A stretch of 64,000 nucleotides of DNA, taken from Hyphomicrobium methylovorum (GTDB lineage Bacteria > Pseudomonadota > Alphaproteobacteria > Rhizobiales > Hyphomicrobiaceae). The notes beneath the pieces are model-generated. The model searched no databases. It had not been told where the DNA came from and saw only the letters and a list, made by a program, of their open reading frames with translations. The position numbers and the translations under genes were made by a program. The DNA lies in the NCBI RefSeq assembly GCF_013626205.1, contig NZ_QHJE01000001.1:1612001-1676000 (forward strand). Reading direction: 5' to 3'. Shown piece by piece: positions 43,674-54,069 of the stretch (position 1 is its first letter; each line of letters opens with the position of its first letter).

Positions 43674-44782
43674 TGCCTTGCCGGTGGGAGATGACGGGCG
43701 AGCCCGGTGGATTGAAACAAGGAGAGGAGGCGCTTCCGGATCGGATGCCAGAAAACGCCAAGCAGCAGCACGAAGCCGCCAACGCAGGCGAGCGTCATTA
43801 CAAACGACGACGGTATTCCAGTTGCGCTCTGGCTGATGTCGCCTCGGCTCAGAATGTCATAAACGGCGATCGTAAACGCGAACAGCGACGATACCAGGAT
43901 CGCGCGCCGGTCAATCAGCAATGCGATGAGCCCGAGGATTAGAACGGTGAGCAGGACGGCGCCGGATGTGCTTGGTCCGTTGGTCGATTCCTTCACCATC
44001 GCGAGAACGGGCGAAACGATCATCGGGGCTGCAACGAGGTGCAGCCAGAACGCGCAATCGGAGAGGCGCGTGCGGCGCTCCTTGTCGTGTGAATCGTAGA
44101 CAAGCGCGATGGCGAAGAGCGCGAGGCCGTAACCGAAGGCGAGTAGCGTCCAGCCGGTCGTGGCGGCGATGAGCCAGTTCAAGACGAAGTAACCAAAGCA
44201 GGCGATCAGCGCGAGCGCGAATGGCAGGCGGAAGCGGGCATAGTAAAGCGTGGCGGCAATCAGTGCAGGTGTCGCGAACAGCAGTGTCGGGTTTCGCCAG
44301 AATACCAGGTCGGAATAGAGGTCACGGTTCGCGTCGGCAAATATTTGCGCGTGATACTGGATCACGACGGCAGCGGCTGCGAAGACCGTGAACAGGACCG
44401 CGAGGACCATGCCGGGAAGCACGGCGCGTAGACGGCGAACGAGCAATTCACTCAAGAGCCAGAACGTCACCGCAGCAACCGCGACGATGCTCAGCGAGAA
44501 AGCCGGAGCGGCGGCGGAGAGAAACGCGCCGGCGACGAGCAGAACACCAATCGTCAGAAAGACGTCGTTGAAGCCATTCAGGAAGCGGAAGCGTTCTTCG
44601 TCGGCGAGCGCCGGCTCACCGTCGGGACCGATTTGCGTTGCCTCACGCGGGACGTTTGGATTGTTCGCGCGCAGGGCGCGTAACTTTTCGGCTTGAGCGG
44701 CATCGATAACCCCTGCGTCCACGGCCGCTTGCAGGTCGTCGGGCGTCGAGGCGCCGGGTGTTGAAGCGTTCGGCATCGTCAT
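43670..44782 (-). CDS. Multi-helix membrane protein between hslV and hslU
   Basis: A 370-residue protein whose first 55 residues are cytosolic and hydrophilic ([20 protein letters not shown], a DUF2157-like helical start), followed by about ten hydrophobic helices. No catalytic motif is seen. It is sandwiched in the hslV-hslU operon, 53 bases after hslV and overlapping hslU by four bases, so it is made together with the protease. This could mean a membrane partner for HslUV, but the family has no known function. Conservation of the position needs checking. Confidence 0.75.
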
Positions 44783-44835
44783 CCTTGAGGCAACGGAGCG
44801 AGGAGGGCCATCGTCATATCGTTCGGAGACTGAGG

Positions 44836-45423
44836 TTACGCTTGGGTTGGGTCGGATACGCTCGATTCCAGCGATTCAAGCACGAGGCTGGTGTTCGTGT
44901 AGACGCAGATTTCAGCGGCGATTGCCATGGCTTTCCTGGCGATCGCTTCGGCGTCGAGCGGTTGATCCAGGAGTGCGCGGGCGGCGGAAAGTGCATAGTT
45001 GCCGCCGGAGCCGATGCCCATGACATAGTTTTCCGGTTCGAGCACGTCGCCGGTGCCGGTCAGGACAAGCGTCGTGCTGGCGTCGGCAACGATCATCATG
45101 GCTTCGAGGCGGCGCAGGAAACGGTCCGTTCGCCAGTCCTTCGCGAGTTCGACGGCGGCGCGTGTGAGCTGTCCGGGATATTGCTCGAGCTTGCCTTCGA
45201 GGCGTTCGAACAGCGTGAACGCGTCGGCGGTTGCTCCCGCGAACCCGCCGATCACGTCACCCTTGCCGAGGCGGCGGACCTTTTTGGCGTTCGATTTGAT
45301 GATCGTCTGGCCGAGGCTGACCTGACCGTCGCCCGCGATTACGACGCGCCCGCCCTTGCGGACGGTCAGGATCGTGGTGGCGTGCCAGGAGGCGTGGGAA
45401 GAATTTGGGCTGGTTTGGGTCAT
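44836..45423 (-). CDS. hslV: HslV, peptidase of the HslUV protease
   Basis: Proteasome-like threonine peptidase of 195 aa, forming a double hexamer. The catalytic N-terminal Thr is probably Thr16 in [13 protein letters not shown], so a 15-residue propeptide must be removed; E. coli HslV has only the initiator Met. Family motifs [22 protein letters not shown] and [16 protein letters not shown] are intact. First gene of hslV-membrane protein-hslU and divergent from hisB. Confidence 0.96.
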
Positions 45424-45605
45424 GTGTGCCGGTCAATTAAGGTTTTGCGGGCAAGATACAAGTCGTTCCCGGGTTTGTGCGGCTTTCGGGCCTTGAGGTC
45501 CAGCTTGGCGGGACGGGACGGTTCCTGATACATGCTCGGGTGCCGGTTCGGGCTTGCTTTAGCGCGACCCGGCAGGACGAATTGTGACGTGAGGCGGAGA
45601 GACTT

Positions 45606-46196
45606 GTGAAGCGCCAGGCGACGATAACGCGAAAGACTAAGGAGACTGAAATCTCCGCGACCGTTAATCTCGACGGAAACGGGGCTTACGACATCCAGAC
45701 GGGTATCGGCTTTCTCGATCATATGCTTGAGCAACTCGCTCGCCATTCGTTGATCGACATCACGCTGCGCGCCAAGGGCGACCTGCACATCGATTTTCAC
45801 CATACCGCCGAAGATACCGGCATCGTCATCGGGCAAGCGATCGCACAGGCGCTCGGCGACAAGGCGGGGATCGTGCGGTATGCGGACGTCCATTTGCCGA
45901 TGGACGAGACGCTGACGCGCGTCGCGCTCGACGTGTCGGGGCGGCCGTTTCTGATCTGGAAGGCAGAGTTTTCTCGCCACAAGGTCGGGGAAATGGATAC
46001 CGAACTCTTTCGCGAGTGGTTCCAGGCGTTTGCGCAGAACGCTGGGATTACGCTGCACGTCGAGAATCTCTACGGCGAGAACAATCACCATATAGCCGAG
46101 ACTTGCTATAAGGGGCTGGCCCGGGCACTTCGGACGGCCATTTCGCTCGATCCGAGGCAGGCGGGGCGCATTCCTTCGACAAAGGGTTCGCTTTAG
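45606..46196 (+). CDS. hisB: Imidazoleglycerol-phosphate dehydratase
   Basis: Manganese-dependent dehydratase of the histidine pathway, 196 aa. The two repeated metal-binding HxxxH-type motifs are [17 protein letters not shown] and [15 protein letters not shown], with [18 protein letters not shown] near the C-terminus. Start is GTG 45606 with GGAGAG about 6 bases upstream. It heads hisB-DUF2628-hisH. Note that the monofunctional form (no phosphatase domain) is present, the usual alphaproteobacterial state. Confidence 0.97.
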
Positions 46197-46244
46197 GCCC
46201 GCGTTTCGCAGACTGACAACACTTCGCTCCAGGAGCCAAAGCCC

Positions 46245-46724
46245 GTGGTGACCTATACCGTTCATGAGCCGTTGACGCCGGGTTCCGATCGCGTCGATCG
46301 CGGCGTTGAACTCGCGTTCATCAAAGACGGCTTTTCGTGGCTGACGGCGATTTGTCCGCCACTCGGTTTTCTGGCGAACGGACTTTGGCTGTTCGCCATC
46401 GGCTATTTCTTTTTGGCGGGTGTGCTCGCGTGGGCGCTCAGCGCGTGGAAAGTCGATCCGCAGGTGACGGGCTTGCTGTTTTTGGGGCTCAACTTCTATC
46501 TCGGGTTTGAAGTGTCCTCGCTGAAGCGGTGGATGCTGTCGCAAACGGGATGGCAGACGCTGGGCGTCGTGACCGGCAAGACAATTGCGGATTGCGAGCG
46601 CCGGTTCTTCGAGAGCTGGCTTCCGAATCAGCCGATCCTTTCGAACGAGCCGAGCAACACTCGCGCCGCCGACACAGCTCCTCGACGCGGCTCGCGGTTC
46701 TGGCCGTTCGGAGCGCGCGGCTAA
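46245..46724 (+). CDS. DUF2628 membrane protein of the his cluster
   Basis: A 159-residue protein with two or three helices (about 30-75 and 80-100), starting with the DUF2628 pattern [29 protein letters not shown] and containing [15 protein letters not shown]. It is conserved between hisB and hisH in Hyphomicrobiales, which suggests a link to the operon, but its function is unknown. Start GTG 46245 has AGGAG 9 bases upstream. The C-terminal 35 residues are polar and rich in Arg and Pro. Confidence 0.88.
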
Positions 46725-46734
46725 GCTGAAATCC

Positions 46735-47388
46735 ATGCAGAACGTCGTCATCATCGATTATGGCTCGGGCAATCTCCACTCGGCGGCGAAGGCCTTCGAG
46801 AGCGCGGCGCGCGAGAGCGAGATCGCTTCCAACATCGTCGTCAGTTCGCGTGCGGAGGACGTGCTGCGGGCTGATCGCGTCGTGCTTCCCGGCGTCGGTG
46901 CTTACGCCGACTGCAAGCGCGGGCTGGAGCGCGTTCCCGGGATGATCGCGGCGCTCGAAGAAACTGTACGCCAAAACGGACGGCCTTTTCTGGGCATTTG
47001 CGTCGGTATGCAGCTGTTGAGTGAACGAGGGCGCGAATTCGCGGTCACTGACGGGCTCGGTTGGATTAAGGGTGAGGTTCGGGCGATCGAGCCCTCAGAT
47101 CCCGCGCTCAAGATTCCGCATATGGGATGGAACACGCTCGCGGTTGAGCACGAGCACGCGCTGCTTGATGGCATCCCTACAGGGCGCGACGGCTGGCACG
47201 CGTATTTCGTGCATTCGTTCCAACTCGCGCCAACCGACCGGCGCGTGGTGGTGGCGGATACGGATTACGGTGGGGCGATCACGGCGCTCGTTGCGGATGG
47301 CAACATCGCGGGCACTCAGTTTCACCCCGAGAAGAGCCAGAAGCTCGGGCTGAAGTTGATCGCGAATTTTCTGAACTGGAAGCCGTAA
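46735..47388 (+). CDS. hisH: Imidazole glycerol phosphate synthase, glutaminase subunit
   Basis: Class I glutamine amidotransferase of 217 aa that supplies ammonia to HisF. Catalytic Cys89 ([11 protein letters not shown]), His197 and Glu199 (TQFHPEKSQ) are present; the oxyanion region PGVGAYADC is intact. Start ATG 46735 is preferred because [16 protein letters not shown] is the family N-terminus; the open frame begins inside the DUF2628 gene. hisA, which normally follows, is displaced 2 kb by an inverted block. Confidence 0.96.
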
Positions 47389-47513
47389 GCAAGCGCTTCT
47401 TTCGCGCGGTAGGGGCTAGCCAAACAATTCCGGGATGCGAAGAGCGTGCGCGTGGCGGGCGCATCAGAGGCGCCTCGGCAGTTTTATTTTCTGTTCAATC
47501 ATCGAGCCTATTC

Positions 47514-47593
47514 GAGCGAGCGTTATATCGACTCGCTCCAACGGCAACGCGTGGGCTCAAGCCGGGCCGTGCTGATCCGGCTTCGGCTTGAGC
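47514..47593. repeat. Two hairpins downstream of the second Cas2-like gene
   Basis: GAGCGAG / CTCGCTC (47514-47520 with 47532-47538) and GCTCAAGCCG / CGGCTTGAGC (47555-47564 with 47584-47593, plus inner GCCG/CGGC). They lie in the 265-base gap between hisH and the 47654-48010 gene and follow the latter on the minus strand by 61 bases. No T tract; they may end both convergent transcripts. No gene is seen in the rest of the gap. Confidence 0.55.
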
Positions 47594-47653
47594 TTGGCGT
47601 TTGGCGCTGGCGAACCCACTCCGCAGAGCCGGCCGCCAGCGCGGGGTGCCTAT

Positions 47654-48010
47654 CTATGTCGCCGGGCGGGCGACGGCTTGCACAGCAGATTGAAAGACAG
47701 ACCAGACGCCACGCGGCATCTGCCAGTTGACGACGGGCTCGTCATCTTCGAGGCGGCCCTGCAGCCACTTCAGTCGCGAGGCGACCGCGGCGTCGGTGCG
47801 GCCGAGCTCGTGGACACCGAGTTCGTCGGGGGAATCAAACAGGATCGCGAGGCGACGCTTGATCTGATCGGCACCGAGCCACGTCCGGATGTACCAGACG
47901 CCGGGGCTTACGGGAGCGTACTCGGCGGCGATGTAGGGAAGCGAGAACGAAACGGCCCAGGTGTCCTGATCGGCGGTTCGTGGGGTGTGATGGATGAGGA
48001 AGGTTTTCAT
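47654..48010 (-). CDS. Diverged Cas2-like (SinR-type) protein, second copy
   Basis: A 118-residue protein that aligns with the 120-residue product at 48269-48631: GVWYIRTWLGADQIKRRLAI matches NTWYVASDRDETDLEAELRE, and RTDAAVASRLKWL matches KRDAVLTNTSLRW. The first strand is MKTFLIHHTP here, where the other copy has MRTYLISYDL, so the Asp9 that Cas2-fold nucleases use as metal ligand has become Thr9. It is thus a probable non-catalytic paralogue, perhaps a dimer partner. It is preceded by two large hairpins. No known family member with an established role is claimed. Confidence 0.68.
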   Translation of the reverse strand: MKTFLIHHTPRTADQDTWAVSFSLPYIAAEYAPVSPGVWYIRTWLGADQIKRRLAILFDSPDELGVHELGRTDAAVASRLKWLQGRLEDDEPVVNWQMPRGVWSVFQSAVQAVARPAT

Positions 48011-48126
48011 GCCGGCATTCCGGAGCGTTGGGGGGCTTTTTGGGGGAGCGGGGTACGCAAGAACGCAACAGCTACAGACTTCTGACGTGATGGTCCGGAG
48101 CCGAGGCTACGGAGAAGCGAGAAAGT

Positions 48127-48235
48127 GGGAGCCCGGAACCGGGGGGCGGAACTCCGGGCTCCCCGGGACTGGGTCTTTGAGCGGGACGAACCCGGTGGGA
48201 ACGGAAGGGGGAGAAGCTCGCCCCGCCCAAAGACC
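48127..48235. repeat. Two large stable hairpins between the Cas2-like genes
   Basis: Hairpin one pairs 48127-48137 with 48153-48163 (11 bp, perfect, GGGAGCCCGGA with TCCGGGCTCCC, 15-base loop). Hairpin two pairs 48172-48179 with 48228-48235 and 48181-48185 with 48222-48226 (13 bp with one A-C mismatch). They fill the middle of the 258-base gap between the two Cas2-like genes. They could be a stable RNA, a terminator pair or a processing signal on the minus-strand transcript. No short protein frame fits. Confidence 0.6.
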
Positions 48236-48268
48236 AGAACACTCTTGAGCGCGTACAGCGAGGCTTTC

Positions 48269-48631
48269 TCAGACGGCCTCTGCGAACGGCAATTCCGGCT
48301 CGACAGGTTCCGGCATCGGCGGCGCGGGGAACGCGATCACATTACCATCGGGCGCGAGGTCAAACGCTGCGCGGCGCTGGCGGAACCAGCGGAGAGACGT
48401 ATTCGTCAGAACGGCGTCGCGCTTCGTTGCCTGGATCAGCAAGCCATCGTCTTCCGAGAGCAACTCGCGGAGTTCGGCTTCGAGATCGGTTTCATCGCGA
48501 TCGGAGGCGACGTACCAGGTGTTGACGAGAGGGCGGGCCCACTTGTCGCCGAGGCCCATGATCACTTGCGCGAGCACGTGCTGATTGCGGTTCGGCTTGG
48601 CGAGATCGTACGAGATGAGATAGGTGCGCAT
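48269..48631 (-). CDS. Cas2-like (SinR-type) protein, first copy
   Basis: A 120-residue protein with the ferredoxin-like Cas2 pattern: strand MRTYLISYDL with Asp9, helix NQHVLAQVIMGLGDKWARP, strand VNTWYVAS, helix TDLEAELRELLSE, strand DGLLIQATKR. A Pro-rich tail of 30 residues follows. Free-standing relatives are usually annotated SinR or Cas2-like. No cas1 or CRISPR array is present. Start ATG 48631 is chosen over the longer frame because AGGAGA lies 6 bases upstream. It is directly preceded by a cluster of LexA-type boxes, so it is probably damage-induced. Activity (nuclease or not) is unknown. Confidence 0.72.
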   Translation of the reverse strand: MRTYLISYDLAKPNRNQHVLAQVIMGLGDKWARPLVNTWYVASDRDETDLEAELRELLSEDDGLLIQATKRDAVLTNTSLRWFRQRRAAFDLAPDGNVIAFPAPPMPEPVEPELPFAEAV

Positions 48632-48706
48632 CGGGGGTCTCCTAGTCACGAGGGGGAGGGTCGTTACGCAACTCTGACCCGTGATTGGGCTCTTTTGGGG
48701 CGCCCG

Positions 48707-48721
48707 GAACATAGGAAGAAC
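48707..48721. promoter_or_regulatory. LexA (SOS) box 1
   Basis: GAAC-ATAGGAA-GAAC, the exact alphaproteobacterial LexA pattern (GTTC-N7-GTTC on the minus strand). It lies 76 bases before the Cas2-like start at 48631. Confidence 0.65.
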
Positions 48722-48753
48722 ATGACACGACTCAGGGGCGTTGTCTAGTGAAT

Positions 48754-48779
48754 GTTCTAAAAATGTTCTTGTGAAGTTC
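48754..48779. promoter_or_regulatory. LexA (SOS) boxes 2 and 3, overlapping
   Basis: Three GTTC tetramers spaced by exactly seven bases (48754, 48765, 48776) make two overlapping GTTC-N7-GTTC boxes. With box 1 this gives three boxes in 73 bases, all in the gap upstream of the Cas2-like gene. A single box is expected about twice per 64 kb by chance on both strands; three together are not. Confidence 0.75.
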
Positions 48780-48807
48780 TTAACGCAGTGGTAGAGCCAA
48801 GCTGCCG

Positions 48808-49122
48808 TTAGGCCTCGGAAAACAGGCTCAATTGGTCGGGGTGCGGGCTCAGCGGGATGCGGCGATGCGGGCCGGGATCGAAGCGCGGTTCCAGGCCAGG
48901 GAAACGTGCGGAGAACTCGATCAGCGCGCGCCTGCGGCTGCCGGGAAAGCGCGATTCTTCCCAGATCTCATAGAGACGGCGCGGATCGCACGCGTAGCGG
49001 CGCTGCAGATCGACGGGGCGGATGCGGAGCCAGCGGGCGATCCAGATATCGACAGCGTCGTCTTCGGTTAATGAGCGACGCGCAATCGCGGGCGGCGGGC
49101 TATCGAGAAATATGGTGGCCAT
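48808..49122 (-). CDS. Small protein ending in a sliding-clamp-binding motif
   Basis: A 104-residue soluble protein. The middle has a helical segment (EDDAVDIWIARWLRIRPVDLQRRYACDPRRLYEIWEE) that resembles a small helix-turn-helix, and a second basic helix (SRRRALIEFSARF). The last eight residues are QLSLFSEA: Gln97-Leu-Ser-Leu-Phe101 matches the QL[SD]LF consensus by which polymerases, MutS and others bind the beta clamp DnaN. It is the first gene of the inverted block in the his cluster and ends just before the SOS boxes. Function unknown; clamp binding is inference from the motif. Confidence 0.72.
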   Translation of the reverse strand: MATIFLDSPPPAIARRSLTEDDAVDIWIARWLRIRPVDLQRRYACDPRRLYEIWEESRFPGSRRRALIEFSARFPGLEPRFDPGPHRRIPLSPHPDQLSLFSEA

Positions 49123-49421
49123 ACGCGGAACTCAGTCTTTTTCGCGGGCTGCGGGCAACGAGATGCGGCCGGATCAGCTTCGATTCGGCGCGCCCGTCGT
49201 GCTCGGACCTTGACGGATGCGCCGAAGCGCTATTGATCGCCCCTGAAGATAGCAAACTGATGGCCGTTTGTTCTCCTTTTCGGAAAAGGTGGCCGTGACC
49301 GGACGAGGCAAGGGTCACACCCCTCACCGGGCCCTCGCCAAAGTGAAGAGGGTGAGCCGACGCGGCCAAGGCCTTTCTGTTTTGGAAAGCGCAAGGCAAG
49401 CACAGCGTATTTGAGGACCAA
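49123..49421. other. Gap between the inverted block and hisA
   Basis: A 299-base stretch with no convincing gene; frames on both strands are short and low in quality. It contains CTCACC and GGTGAG arms near 49321-49360, a loose inverted repeat similar in style to dispersed intergenic repeats of rhizobia. It should also hold the hisA promoter, since hisA is cut off from hisH; a TTGAGGACC ribosome site is at its end. Confidence 0.4.
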
Positions 49422-50147
49422 TTGATCTTATTTCCTGCGATTGATTTGAAGGATGGGCAGTGCGTCAGGCTGAAGCTCGGTGAGATGGACGCGGCCACCG
49501 TGTTCAATGACGACCCGGCGGCGCAGGCGGCTTCGTTCGAAGCTCAAGGCTTCAAATATCTGCACATCGTCGATCTCAATGGGGCGTTCGCCGGAAAGCC
49601 GGTCAATGCCACCGCCGTCGAGGCGATCCTCAAAGCCATTTCGATGCCCGCACAGCTCGGCGGCGGCATTCGCGATCTGGCGACGGTGGAAAGCTGGCTC
49701 GAAAAGGGTATTCGCCGGGTGATCCTTGGCACCATCGCCGTGCGCGATCCGGCGCTTGTGAAGGAGGCCGCGCGGCGGTTTCCGGGTCAGGTCGCAGTCG
49801 GCATCGATGCGAAGGGCGGCAAGGTCGCGGTCGAAGGCTGGGCCGAGACGTCGGAGCTCACAGCGATCGAGCTTGCGAAGCGCTTCGAGGATGCTGGCGT
49901 CGCCGCCATCATTTATACCGACATCGAGCGCGACGGCGTGCTGAAGGGCTTGAACCTTCCGGCGACGGCCGAGTTGGCGCGGGCGACGCGAATACCGGTC
50001 ATTGCGTCTGGCGGGCTTGCGTCCATCGACGATGTGCGCGAGCTGATGCGTCCCGAATATGCGATGCTTGAAGGCGCCATTACCGGGCGTGCTCTTTATG
50101 ACGGGCGTATCGACCCCAAAGCGGCGCTCGAACTTTTGGAGGCGTGA
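49422..50147 (+). CDS. hisA: Phosphoribosylformimino-AICAR isomerase HisA
   Basis: Beta/alpha barrel isomerase of histidine synthesis, 241 aa. The start is TTG 49422 with GAGGA about 5 bases upstream, giving [17 protein letters not shown], the family N-terminus with catalytic Asp8. The second Asp is in [14 protein letters not shown]. Half-barrel repeats and phosphate loops ([26 protein letters not shown]) are intact. A 74-aa gene overlaps its stop (TGATG). Confidence 0.96.
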
Positions 50148-50371
50148 TGAACATCGGCGACATGGTTCGCGTAGAGCGCGTTCCGGATGGATTGCCGCCA
50201 GATGACAAGCATCTTGCGGCGTTGTTTCAAGGCTGCGTCGGCCGCACGTTTCCGATCATCAATTTCGATGGTGATCTGGTCGAGCTGCACGTCGGCGAAG
50301 TTTTCGGCAAACCTGCCAAACAGCATCAAATCTGGCTCGCACCGAGCCAACTGACTCTCATCGAGGCCTGA
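50147..50371 (+). CDS. Small unknown protein coupled to hisA
   Basis: A 74-residue protein whose ATG overlaps the hisA stop (TGATG); GGAGG lies 4-5 bases ahead. It looks like a compact beta domain: [20 protein letters not shown], then GCVGRTFPIINFDGDLVELHVG and HQIWLAPSQLTLIEA. The pattern of alternating hydrophobics and the ending resemble an SH3-like barrel as in some nitrile hydratase or carbon-storage proteins, but no family is recognised. prfC starts 3 bases after it. Coupling suggests co-expression with hisA. Confidence 0.72.
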   Translation: MNIGDMVRVERVPDGLPPDDKHLAALFQGCVGRTFPIINFDGDLVELHVGEVFGKPAKQHQIWLAPSQLTLIEA

Positions 50372-50374
50372 CAT

Positions 50375-51997
50375 TTGAATTCGACGCTGCAAGCTGCTCC
50401 GGCCGAGCCCGGCATGCCGCCCGAGATTGCGCGACGGCGCACGTTCGCGATCATTTCGCATCCGGATGCCGGTAAGACGACGCTGACCGAAAAGCTTCTG
50501 CTGTTCGGTGGCGCTATTCAGATGGCCGGGGCGGTGAAGGCGCGCGGCGAGCGCCGGCGCACGCGCTCGGATTGGATGCAGATCGAGCAGCAGCGCGGCA
50601 TCTCCGTGACGTCTTCGGTGATGACGTTCGAGCGCAATGGCATCGTCTTCAACCTGCTCGACACGCCGGGCCACTCCGATTTCAGCGAAGATACCTATCG
50701 CACGTTGTCGGCTGTCGACGCGGCTGTGATGGTGATGGACGCGGCGAAGGGCATCGAAGCGCAGACGCGCAAGCTGTTCGAAGTTTGCCGCTTGCGCGAT
50801 ATTCCGATCATCACGTTCATCAACAAGATCGACCGCGAGGCGGAAGATCCGCTGACGTTGTTGGATCAGATTGCGGCTGACCTTGCGCTCGACCTCGTGC
50901 CGATGGCGTGGCCGGTTGGGATGGGTACCGATTTTCGCGGTGTGCTCGATCTGGTCGGCAAACGCTTGCTGATGCCGGAGAGCAAAGAGCGCGGCGCTCC
51001 GTATGGCCGGGTCGTAGCGCTCGATTCGCTCGAAGATATTCGCAAGATCGAAGGGATCGACGAGCGCATCGCGGACCGCACGCTCGAAGGCGTTGAGCTG
51101 GCGCAGGGTGCGTTGCCGACGTTCGATCTCGAAGCGTTCCGCGAAGGGCATCTGTCGCCGGTCTTTTTCGGAAGCGCACTCAAGAATTTCGGAGTCGAGC
51201 AATTGCTCGATGCGCTCGGTGCGTGGGCTCCGAGCCCGTTGCCGCGAAAGGCGACGCAGCGGACTGTCAACGCCAGTGAAGATCAGGTGACGGGCTTCGT
51301 GTTCAAGGTCCAAGCCAACATGGACCCGAACCACCGTGACCGCGTCGCGTTTGTGCGGCTGTGCTCGGGCAAGTTCCGGCGCGGCATGCGACTGCTTCAC
51401 GTGCGCGATAACAAAGCGATGACGGTGTCTTCGCCGACGTTCTTTTTTGGTCAAGGGCGCGAGACGGCGGACGAAGCCTATGCGGGCGACATCATCGGCG
51501 TGCCGAATCACGGAACGCTGCGAGTCGGCGATACGCTGACGGAAAAAGAGAGCCTGAAATTTACTGGCATTCCGAACTTCGCGCCCGAGCTTTTGCGCCG
51601 CGTTGTCATTGCGGATGCGATGAAAGCGAAGCAGCTCAACCGCGCGCTGGACGACCTCGCGGAAGAAGGCATCGTTCAGGTGTTCACACCGATCGCGGGC
51701 GGGCGGCAGATTCTCGGAGTTGTCGGGCAACTGCAGTTCGAAGTGCTGCAGTCGCGTGTCTCAGTCGAATACGGCGTGCCGGTGATGCTTGAACAATCGC
51801 CATTCGAACTTGCGCGCTGGGTTTCGGCCGACGATCCGGCAAAGCTTGACGCGTTCATCAATGCGCATCGCGGCGAGATTGCACGTGACCGTGACGACGC
51901 GCTGGTGTTCCTGGCGGAGAGCGCGTGGATGCTGAAGTATAAAAGCGAGAAGTTCCCGGATATCAAATTCGCCGCACTCAGGGAGCGCGGCGAATAA
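50375..51997 (+). CDS. prfC: Peptide chain release factor 3
   Basis: Translational GTPase of 540 aa that frees RF1/RF2 from the ribosome after termination. G1 is SHPDAGKTTLTEKLL, switch I region carries QRGISVTSSVM, and G3 is DTPGHSDFSEDTYR. Domains II and III are complete and the length fits the E. coli protein (529). Start TTG 50375 has GAGG 8 bases upstream. It probably belongs to the hisA transcript; hisF follows after an inverted gene. Confidence 0.95.
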   Translation: MNSTLQAAPAEPGMPPEIARRRTFAIISHPDAGKTTLTEKLLLFGGAIQMAGAVKARGERRRTRSDWMQIEQQRGISVTSSVMTFERNGIVFNLLDTPGHSDFSEDTYRTLSAVDAAVMVMDAAKGIEAQTRKLFEVCRLRDIPIITFINKIDREAEDPLTLLDQIAADLALDLVPMAWPVGMGTDFRGVLDLVGKRLLMPESKERGAPYGRVVALDSLEDIRKIEGIDERIADRTLEGVELAQGALPTFDLEAFREGHLSPVFFGSALKNFGVEQLLDALGAWAPSPLPRKATQRTVNASEDQVTGFVFKVQANMDPNHRDRVAFVRLCSGKFRRGMRLLHVRDNKAMTVSSPTFFFGQGRETADEAYAGDIIGVPNHGTLRVGDTLTEKESLKFTGIPNFAPELLRRVVIADAMKAKQLNRALDDLAEEGIVQVFTPIAGGRQILGVVGQLQFEVLQSRVSVEYGVPVMLEQSPFELARWVSADDPAKLDAFINAHRGEIARDRDDALVFLAESAWMLKYKSEKFPDIKFAALRERGE

Positions 51998-52045
51998 GGT
52001 TTCCGTCATGATCGCTTGCCGTATCCGGCCGTGCGTCAGATGCGC

Positions 52046-52357
52046 CTACACCGAAGCGGAAGGCTTACGCGGAGTTGGGTCGTTGAATTTGTGTTCGATG
52101 GATTCGAGCCACCGGTGCAGCGACTTTTCGAGCGCGTCCGTTTGCGCCGATGCTTTGCTATGGTGAAGCTCTGTTACCGTCGCTACGCCGTCGAGTGATC
52201 CGCGGATTGCGTCGTGCTCTGCTACAAGCTCCGTTAACGCATCGGAATGGTCGCCGATAGCGCCGTGAGCCTCAAGCTGGGTCCGCGCCTGCGCAATACG
52301 ATCTTGCAGAGACGCCAAACGCGCGCGGAGGTTTAGAGGTGCGAATTCGTCGCCCAT
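52046..52357 (-). CDS. Small helical protein of unknown function
   Basis: A 103-residue protein, nearly all helical, with coiled-coil character in residues 10-40 (LRARLASLQDRIAQARTQLEA) and 60-90. No signal peptide or Cys. It lies inverted between prfC and hisF, convergent with prfC. Start ATG 52357 is chosen because the upstream part of the frame (LLLHKEIL) looks random. Function unknown; it might be a small DNA- or protein-binding factor. Confidence 0.6.
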   Translation of the reverse strand: MGDEFAPLNLRARLASLQDRIAQARTQLEAHGAIGDHSDALTELVAEHDAIRGSLDGVATVTELHHSKASAQTDALEKSLHRWLESIEHKFNDPTPRKPSASV

Positions 52358-52523
52358 CGAGAGAATTTCCTTGTGCAATAGCAACTCCAAAGTTTGCGCA
52401 ATTCCGCAAAACACACAAACTCTGAGTTGAAGAAAGAGTTCCAGTTGGTGTTGGTTTATAAGATACCCCGCTGATGAGCATCATACCTCTGTTCGCGCCC
52501 GCGGTTTAGGAAAATAAAAGCCT

Positions 52524-53300
52524 ATGCTGAAAGTTCGGATCATTCCCTGCCTCGACGTTAAGGACGGTCGCGTCGTGAAAGGCGTGAATTTCGTTGATCT
52601 TATCGATGCGGGCGACCCAGTCGAAGCTGCCGCAGCCTATGATGCGGCAGGTGCAGACGAGCTTTGCTTCCTCGACATCACTGCGAGCCACGAGAACCGC
52701 GATACGATTTTCGATGTGGTGGAGCGGACAGCGAACCGCTGCTTCATGCCTCTAACCGTTGGCGGCGGCGTCCGGACCGTCGAAGACATCCGCAAGCTGC
52801 TCGAGGCGGGCGCGGACAAAGTTTCGATCAACACGGCGGCCGTCAACAATCCAGAGTTCGTCAAAGAAGCGAGTGAGAAGTTTGGTACGCAGTGCATCGT
52901 CGTTGCTATCGACGCCAAAAAAGTCTCGGCTGACGGCGAGACGGCGCGCTGGGAAATTTTCACACACGGCGGACGCAAGCCGACGGGCATCAACGCGGTC
53001 GACTTTGCGCGCCAGGTTGCGTCTCTCGGTGCCGGCGAAATTCTGCTGACGTCGATGGACCGGGATGGCACCAAGGCGGGCTTCGACGTTGCGCTAACGC
53101 GTGCCGTTGCAGACGCTGTTCCGATTCCCGTGATCGCCTCGGGGGGTGTTGGCACGCTCGATCATCTCGTGGCGGGAGTACGAGATGGACACGCGAGCGC
53201 GGTGCTGGCGGCCTCGATCTTCCATTTCGGAACGTATTCGATCCCCGAAGCCAAGGCGCATCTCGCGAAGGCAGGTTTGGCGGTGCGGCTCGATTCCTGA
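52524..53300 (+). CDS. hisF: Imidazole glycerol phosphate synthase cyclase subunit HisF
   Basis: Beta/alpha barrel partner of HisH, 258 aa; it joins PRFAR and ammonia to imidazole glycerol phosphate and AICAR. Catalytic Asp11 is in [18 protein letters not shown] and the second Asp in [22 protein letters not shown] precedes ATG 52524. It ends one base before the convergent nth stop. hisE and hisI are not in the window. Confidence 0.97.
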
Positions 53301-53301
53301 A

Positions 53302-54069
53302 TTAGGCTGTGGCCGCCGGTGCGGGCGTCTTGTCGGGAAAGCGGCAGATGTCTGCGATCAGGCAGCGCCAGCATTCGGGTTTGCGCGCCTTGCAGAGATA
53401 GCGGCCATGCAGAATCAGCCAATGGTGCGCGTGCATCGCATAGTCTGCCGGAATGATGCGAACGAGGTCTTCCTCGACGGCCAGTGGCGTTGCGCCTCGC
53501 GATAGGCCGATACGATTGGAGACGCGAAAGACGTGCGTGTCGACCGCCATCGTTGGATGCCCGAAGGCGATGTTCATCACGACGTTCGCCGTCTTGCGGC
53601 CGACGCCCGGAAGGGTTTCCAGAATGTCTCGATCGTCCGGCACCGTGCTGTCGAATTCCTCGACGAGGCGCTGGGAGAGGGCGATGACGTTCTTCGCCTT
53701 GGTGCGATAGAGTCCGATCGTCTTGATGTAGTCGCGGAGGCTCTCTTCGCCGAGCGCGAACATGGCGGCAGGCGTCGGTGCAACTTCAAACAGAGCGCGC
53801 GTGGCTTTGTTAACGCCTGCGTCCGTTGCCTGCGCCGAGAGGACAACGGCAACCAGCAGCGTAAACGAATTGATGTGTTCCAGTTCGCCCTTGGGTTCCG
53901 GGTTTTCCGAATGGAAGCGGCGAAAGATTTCGCGGATTTCGGACGCGCTGAGAGGAGAGCGGCCCCGCTTGCCCGATTTTGCGGCAGAAGGTGCGGGCTT
54001 TCCCGTATTGTCTTTTGCCTTGGAACCGGAGAAGTTCCGCTGACGTATTGGTTCGGCGGCCTTGGCCAT
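53302..54069 (-). CDS. nth: Endonuclease III (DNA glycosylase/AP lyase)
   Basis: Removes oxidised pyrimidines in base excision repair. The 255-aa protein has a basic 40-residue N-terminal extension, the helix-hairpin-helix LPGVGRKTANVV with catalytic Lys159, catalytic Asp177 in MAVDTHVFRVSNR, and a 4Fe-4S cluster formed by Cys226, Cys233, Cys236 and Cys242 (spacing C-x6-C-x2-C-x5-C). The extension is longer than in E. coli but usual for this group. Convergent with hisF; divergent from the DUF2244 gene at 54142. Confidence 0.96.
   Translation of the reverse strand: MAKAAEPIRQRNFSGSKAKDNTGKPAPSAAKSGKRGRSPLSASEIREIFRRFHSENPEPKGELEHINSFTLLVAVVLSAQATDAGVNKATRALFEVAPTPAAMFALGEESLRDYIKTIGLYRTKAKNVIALSQRLVEEFDSTVPDDRDILETLPGVGRKTANVVMNIAFGHPTMAVDTHVFRVSNRIGLSRGATPLAVEEDLVRIIPADYAMHAHHWLILHGRYLCKARKPECWRCLIADICRFPDKTPAPAATA

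Follow-up and report, generated by a model that had tools for sequence, protein, structure and literature searches.

A probable double LexA operator around the promoter of a Cas2-like gene in Hyphomicrobium methylovorum

Three copies of a LexA-type motif, GTTC-N7-GTTC, are clustered upstream of a small Cas2-like gene in Hyphomicrobium methylovorum, and the cluster is likely to be a double LexA operator set around one promoter of this gene (we put the probability at about 0.85). The boxes, their spacing, the promoter-like elements and a GANTC site that lies between them are shown by sequence and conservation; LexA binding and induction are inferred. The stretch of DNA analysed, called the window below, is 64,000 nucleotides long.

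Operator boxes and promoter-like elements

The proximal box, GAACATAGGAAGAAC at 48707-48721, is a GAAC-N7-GAAC. The distal boxes are formed by GTTC tetramers starting at 48754, 48765 and 48776; with this 11-base spacing, the three tetramers make two overlapping boxes, in the opposite orientation to the proximal one. Along the gene strand the order is GAACTTCACAAGAAC/GAACATTTTTAGAAC (48779-48754), TAGACA, GAGTC, CATGTT and GTTCTTCCTATGTTC (48721-48707), followed by 75 bases up to the start codon at 48631. The -35-like and -10-like hexamers are 17 bases apart, with GAGTC inside the spacer. The putative promoter is bracketed: one box lies shortly before the -35-like element and another covers the -10-like element. 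A scan for E. coli-type promoters reported neither hexamer, both being weak by E. coli rules, and a search of Rfam for a known RNA element in 47380-49500, with E values up to 1 admitted, returned nothing.

Table 1. Positions in the window of the operator boxes, promoter-like elements and genes discussed in the text.
Feature	Position	Strand	Remarks
Proximal LexA-type box	48707..48721	-	gene strand GTTCTTCCTATGTTC; overlaps the -10-like element
Distal LexA-type box	48754..48768	-	gene strand GAACATTTTTAGAAC; lies shortly before the -35-like element
Second distal box	48765..48779	-	gene strand GAACTTCACAAGAAC; overlaps the first distal box; less conserved
-35-like hexamer TAGACA	48742..48747	-	from an alignment of 37 loci; commonest family form TGGACA
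-10-like hexamer CATGTT	48719..48724	-	from an alignment of 37 loci; overlaps the proximal box
GANTC (gene strand GAGTC)	48729..48733	-	CcrM methylation motif; in the -35/-10 spacer
Cas2-like gene (first)	48269..48631	-	120 aa and stop; conserved start MRTYLISYDL
Second Cas2-like gene	47654..48010	-	118 aa; starts MKTFLIHHTP
104-aa neighbour gene	48808..49122	-	C-terminus QLSLF and SEA

The window contains four exact matches to GTTC-N7-GTTC, compared with a mean of 2.47 in 100 shuffles; since four or more were reached in 23 of the shuffles, the count by itself is unremarkable. Three of the four fall within the 73-base cluster (the fourth is at 48188-48202), and first-order Markov simulations of the window, 1500 in number, never produced three motifs inside 73 bases. 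Genome-wide, the motif is barely enriched, with 110 matches against 97 for a reversed control, and the GTTC triple alone, found once against twice for its own reversed control, is no rarer than that control. As the genome-wide enrichment is slight, the weight of the argument rests on the cluster and above all on its conservation.

A protein profile search detected the Cas2-like gene in 89 of the 103 genomes examined from the family Hyphomicrobiaceae, representing 24 of 25 genera. Among the 76 family genomes of good quality the gene is present in 70 and missing from six; in one further genome (G368), which is outside the 89, the promoter and the first codons are present and the gene is cut by the contig end. 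Of the 89 family genes, 88 have an exact proximal box, and the remaining one (G352) differs from it by a single base. A distal box, again exact, is present within the 75 bases upstream of the proximal box in 77 genes, and in 70 it stands 45-49 bases before the proximal box, mostly at 47; two or more distal boxes are found in ten. Across the 37 aligned loci the conserved parts are the boxes, CATGTTC and the CTGGAC of the -35-like element, much of the remaining gap being variable, and the two loci without an exact distal box have degenerate boxes there. The family genomes are related, and these counts are not independent events.

Outside the family, homologues came from 16 genomes, of which one (L055) was omitted because it was wrongly anchored and 15 were tested. 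An exact box within 500 bases upstream was found for three of these 15 distant homologues, in one case only 30 bases before the start; our own estimate of the expectation, at the motif density of the window, is about 0.3. SOS control outside the family is suggestive at most, and is not shown.

A preliminary description, made from the sequence alone, had placed a GAAC-N7-GAAC at 48707-48721 and three GTTC at 48754-48779, and these coordinates held. The 52-150 bases that it gave between boxes and start codon were wrong, the boxes standing 76-148 bases before 48631. The claim that the clustering of three boxes exceeds chance held, on the simulations and on family conservation. It had also stated that loss of the GTTC spacing in relatives that keep the gene would count against LexA; this check was run, and the spacing is retained, supporting the LexA interpretation.

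LexA, GcrA and the intervening GANTC

The alphaproteobacterial LexA motif has been described as a degenerate GTTC-N7-GTTC (PMC7987155). One LexA is encoded in the genome, and one RecA match is over the cut-off, with a second below it. From 100 listed motif places of the 110 found, 20 were picked by eye for AT-rich centres or GTTCT; five of these precede lexA, an imuA-like gene, ssb, a ribonucleotide reductase gene and a radical-SAM gene, and a sixth is about 126 bases before a recQ-like gene. The boxes of lexA and of the imuA-like gene are exact. The latter gene, which we take to be imuA from its position, encodes a protein without a Pfam match and is followed by an ImuB-like gene. No exact box precedes recA, which has the variant GAACAAATCATGTAC; this form, GAAC-N7-GTAC, also occurs at the distal site of one family genome (G024). 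The motif lies directly before the ribonucleotide reductase and radical-SAM genes (L075 and L076), which are candidates for further Hyphomicrobium SOS genes.

Because family-conserved boxes are located at the promoter, LexA is encoded in the genome and the motif is also found upstream of lexA and the imuA-like gene, we consider it highly probable that the first Cas2-like gene is under LexA control. This is inferred from sequence and conservation, without binding or induction data. The preliminary description had proposed LexA regulation and damage induction for this gene, which the comparison supports, binding and induction being inferred; in extending damage induction to the Cas2-like genes in the plural it went too far, as SOS induction of the second gene is unsupported.

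The arrangement resembles the alphaproteobacterial LexA/SOS regulon (lexA, imuAB-dnaE2, recA) in having a GTTC-N7-GTTC operator that overlaps a putative promoter, and a LexA in the genome. It differs in that the target is a gene of the Cas2 fold and in that two operators bracket a single promoter. Double operators are known elsewhere. In the open-access literature searched (PMC), neither a published SOS regulon containing such a Cas2-like gene nor a report linking LexA to one was found. DNA damage induces CRISPR/Cas genes in Acinetobacter baylyi (PMC3978071), which is a different case.

The conserved GANTC between the -35-like and -10-like elements is new beyond what the preliminary description had observed. 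In 73 of the 89 family genes it precedes the proximal box by 12 bases, and in 80 by 11 to 14; the nine genes without it at these offsets (G031, G024, G366, G035, G369, G157, G351, G026 and G365) indicate that the site is not indispensable. In 31 of the 37 aligned loci the GANTC is exactly 12 bases before the box, where about 0.05 in 37 would be expected from flanking DNA (0.00135 GANTC per base). The exact composite GANTC-N7-GTTC-N7-GTTC occurs in 72 of the 89 genes and in 19 of 24 genera, and its N is distributed almost evenly (T24, C18, G15, A15); the other four letters are fixed by the pattern, and only the frequency and the free N serve as evidence. A GANTC at the equivalent offset was found in none of the seven other candidate LexA-box promoters of this genome. 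The same composite, with similar flanks, was seen at L163 (446) and L164 (1468), in genomes G328 and G034, where it is not upstream of a Cas2-like gene.

Both GcrA and a CcrM-like methylase with a RAMA domain are encoded in the genome. GcrA is a sigma70 partner that acts at promoters with an adjacent methylation site, YGAKTCG being the activating form in C. crescentus (PMC7987155). As in the GcrA/CcrM-dependent sigma70 promoters of Caulobacter and its relatives, the GANTC described here is in the core promoter, and the TGAGTCG of the window fits the activating form; only 27 of the 73 family sites do. In the published case, conserved GANTC at SOS genes was explained by overlap with the LexA motif and was without apparent regulatory effect, which was ascribed to LexA occupancy (PMC7987155). 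Here, in contrast, the GANTC lies outside the boxes, and overlap with the LexA motif is therefore no explanation; it is possible, all the same, that the site has no regulatory effect under LexA occupancy. A link between GcrA and repair genes is already known, as the ChIP-seq targets of GcrA in B. abortus include lexA and uvrA; induction of B. abortus lexA after MMS is independent of GcrA (PMC6813329). On balance we lean, without great confidence, towards CcrM/GcrA control of this promoter, which is inferred in the absence of methylation or GcrA-dependence data.

The Cas2-like protein and its neighbours

The gene product is predicted to be a Cas2/VapD-like protein that keeps the presumed catalytic aspartate. 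The structure model behind this prediction is weak (mean pLDDT 53); the order of its secondary-structure elements fits the Cas2/VapD fold, with strand 1 at residues 2-9. The best Foldseek matches in the PDB are Cas2 proteins, BPSL1038 (ranks 3 and 4) and GhoS (rank 6), with probabilities of 1.00-0.99 and E values of 4.2e-3 or worse, no PDB match reaching E 0.001. At the sequence level, the protein matches PADLOC Cas2b (E 8.7e-6) and phrog_1090 (E 1.6e-10). Pfam and NCBIfam returned nothing for either Cas2-like protein or for the 104-aa protein, and a profile search among PDB sequences, with E values up to 1 admitted, found nothing. The conserved start is not the in-frame ATG at 48712, which lies inside the proximal box. 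Asp9, at the end of strand 1, is present in 88 of the 89 family proteins and replaced by Glu in one; Tyr8-Asp9, WARPL, Trp39, Gln67 and Trp82 are nearly or fully invariant. A scan of viral contigs found no relative, and phage and plasmid records hold only distant relatives (nine and seven records, respectively). Similar small proteins from outside the family (L057 and L060) resemble those called 'SinR family protein'.

The likeness to Cas2 consists of the fold (in a weak model), the PADLOC match and an Asp near the end of strand 1; the conserved WARPL..TWY and NT.LRWF motifs set the protein apart. Identity with a CRISPR Cas2 was rejected, as the genome yielded no match to Cas1, and 44000-53500 of the window, the only stretch scanned for arrays, contained nothing like a CRISPR array. 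BPSL1038, of the Cas2/VapD nuclease subfamily (PMC10491678), shares the stand-alone gene, the catalytic Asp and the high Foldseek rank; membership of its subfamily was rejected because the D(X20)SST of BPSL1038 is not met, the window protein having D9(X20)KWA. GhoS is likewise a small Cas2-fold protein outside CRISPR; the Cas2-like gene described here, unlike GhoS, has an SOS-type promoter. Whether the product has nuclease activity is inferred, with no nuclease data, and we would place this slightly on the doubtful side.

The penultimate residue is Ala in all 89 proteins (24 of 24 genera), and six of the nine proteins of one genus (g41) end in DEALAA, which is ssrA-like. Degrons of the ssrA type that are recognized by ClpX end in LAA. 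The penultimate Ala and the DEALAA ends are the grounds for the idea of a C-terminal degron; that the product is short-lived through such an Ala-type degron is an inference to which we give a little less than an even chance. A tail of the form E[LFY]P[FLM], which resembles the Hda clamp motif QLSLPL (PMC12309361), is found in 57 of the 89 proteins and is absent in 32.

The second Cas2-like gene is separated from the first by 258 bases, with a strong hairpin in between. This GC-rich hairpin (48171-48235, minus strand) has a CU-rich loop and stands right after the first gene; the pattern is seen at 12 of 19 Hyphomicrobium loci. The fourth match to the motif in the window, at 48188-48202, sits in the hairpin, and was absent from the corresponding 400 bases of all 12 other Hyphomicrobium loci examined. 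Because of the 258-base gap, the hairpin and the unconserved box, the second gene is not counted as SOS-controlled, and there is no support for such control.

The second gene is probably, although not provably, a paralogue of the first. The profile of the first protein detects a neighbour copy in five of the 19 gene-bearing genomes of the window's genus (G002, G005, G006, G009 and G010; best E 8e-10), the window's own copy going undetected, and the second protein reaches phrog_1090 with no better than E 0.22. The structure model of the second protein (mean pLDDT 67) matches RRM domains first and BPSL1038 at rank 6. Where Asp would be expected this protein has His (His-His, compared with Tyr-Asp in the first protein), and it is possible that it is an inactive paralogue.

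The C-terminus of the 104-aa neighbour contains QxxLF, the canonical sliding-clamp-binding motif (PMC12309361). In 61 of the 89 family genes the promoter is preceded by an open frame that has QxxLF close to its end, and the motif is similarly placed in relatives from four other families (L206-L209). Judged by this motif, the 104-aa protein looks like a small clamp-binding protein that has not yet been described. In 47389-49421 of the window, the three small genes lie in the reverse direction between hisH-like (glutamine amidotransferase) and hisA-like genes; in L206-L209 the relative is followed by antisense frames similar to those that overlie hisH in the window.

Alternative explanations and proposed mechanism

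One alternative concerns the product, which may be a Cas2-fold regulator or adaptor, such as a GhoS-like RNA-targeting antitoxin or a sliding-clamp binder acting through an ELPF/ELPL tail. The Foldseek match to GhoS and the resemblance of the tail to QLSLPL (PMC12309361) speak for it; against it, Asp9 is almost always kept, and the tail motif is missing from 32 of the 89 proteins, compared with a penultimate Ala in every one. We judge this reading to fall just short of probable.

That the GANTC is a promoter element or the decayed remnant of a third LexA half-site, rather than a methylation site, is unlikely. In favour of this reading, the ANTC keeps exactly to the 11-base register set by the GTTC half-sites, and the TC is compatible with one. 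However, a GTTC half-site would keep T at the N, which is instead almost evenly distributed, and GANTC is found at the offset in 73 of 89 genes even when its four letters are not demanded, while being rare in the flanks.

That the boxes bind another repressor with GTTC half-sites, and not LexA, appears very improbable. There are no LexA binding data, and the opposite orientation of the boxes could suit another dimeric regulator; however, GTTC-N7-GTTC is the published alphaproteobacterial LexA motif (PMC7987155), and it also precedes lexA and the imuA-like gene of this genome.

The possibility that the boxes serve the 104-aa gene, which is the nearest gene on their other side, is all but excluded. 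This gene is read in the same direction and ends at 48808, so that the boxes are behind its stop, and L206-L209, outside the family, have no exact box after the stop in the stretch examined; L206 has one exact box 472 bases before the stop of its relative of the 104-aa gene. A cluster formed by chance from a short degenerate motif, for which the near-equal genome-wide counts (110 and 97; triple, 1 and 2) and the 23 shuffles with four matches could be cited, was rejected and is virtually ruled out by the absence of such a cluster from 1500 simulations and by the fixed spacing in the family (proximal box in 88 of 89 genes, distal box at 45-49 bases in 70).

Under the preferred reading of a double LexA operator, the -10-like element would be covered by LexA on the proximal box, and the -35-like element would have LexA next to it, on the distal box or boxes. 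Bound LexA would exclude RNA polymerase until RecA-stimulated cleavage of LexA after DNA damage. CcrM may methylate the GANTC and GcrA-sigma70 may read it, which would tie the strength of the promoter to replication or the cell cycle; this step is less certain than that of LexA. The product would be a short-lived, nuclease-type damage effector, its lifetime limited by the C-terminal Ala-type degron. A bolder reading, which we regard as no more than possible, is of an SOS promoter shut by LexA, with a methylation site in the spacer through which GcrA-sigma70 sets its strength by recent replication of the locus, that drives a short-lived, stand-alone Cas2-fold nuclease acting as a damage-checkpoint effector.

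A protein of the Cas2 fold, usually studied in CRISPR, would here be a conserved damage-response gene product where no Cas1 was found. The promoter would be a compact natural case in which damage control by LexA and probable replication-linked control by CcrM/GcrA methylation are combined at fixed positions, so that the interplay of LexA and methylation can be tested by single changes in a reporter. The product of the gene holds promise as a newly recognized participant in the bacterial response to DNA damage; if the bolder reading is true, Hyphomicrobium and its family would have a new class of SOS effector.
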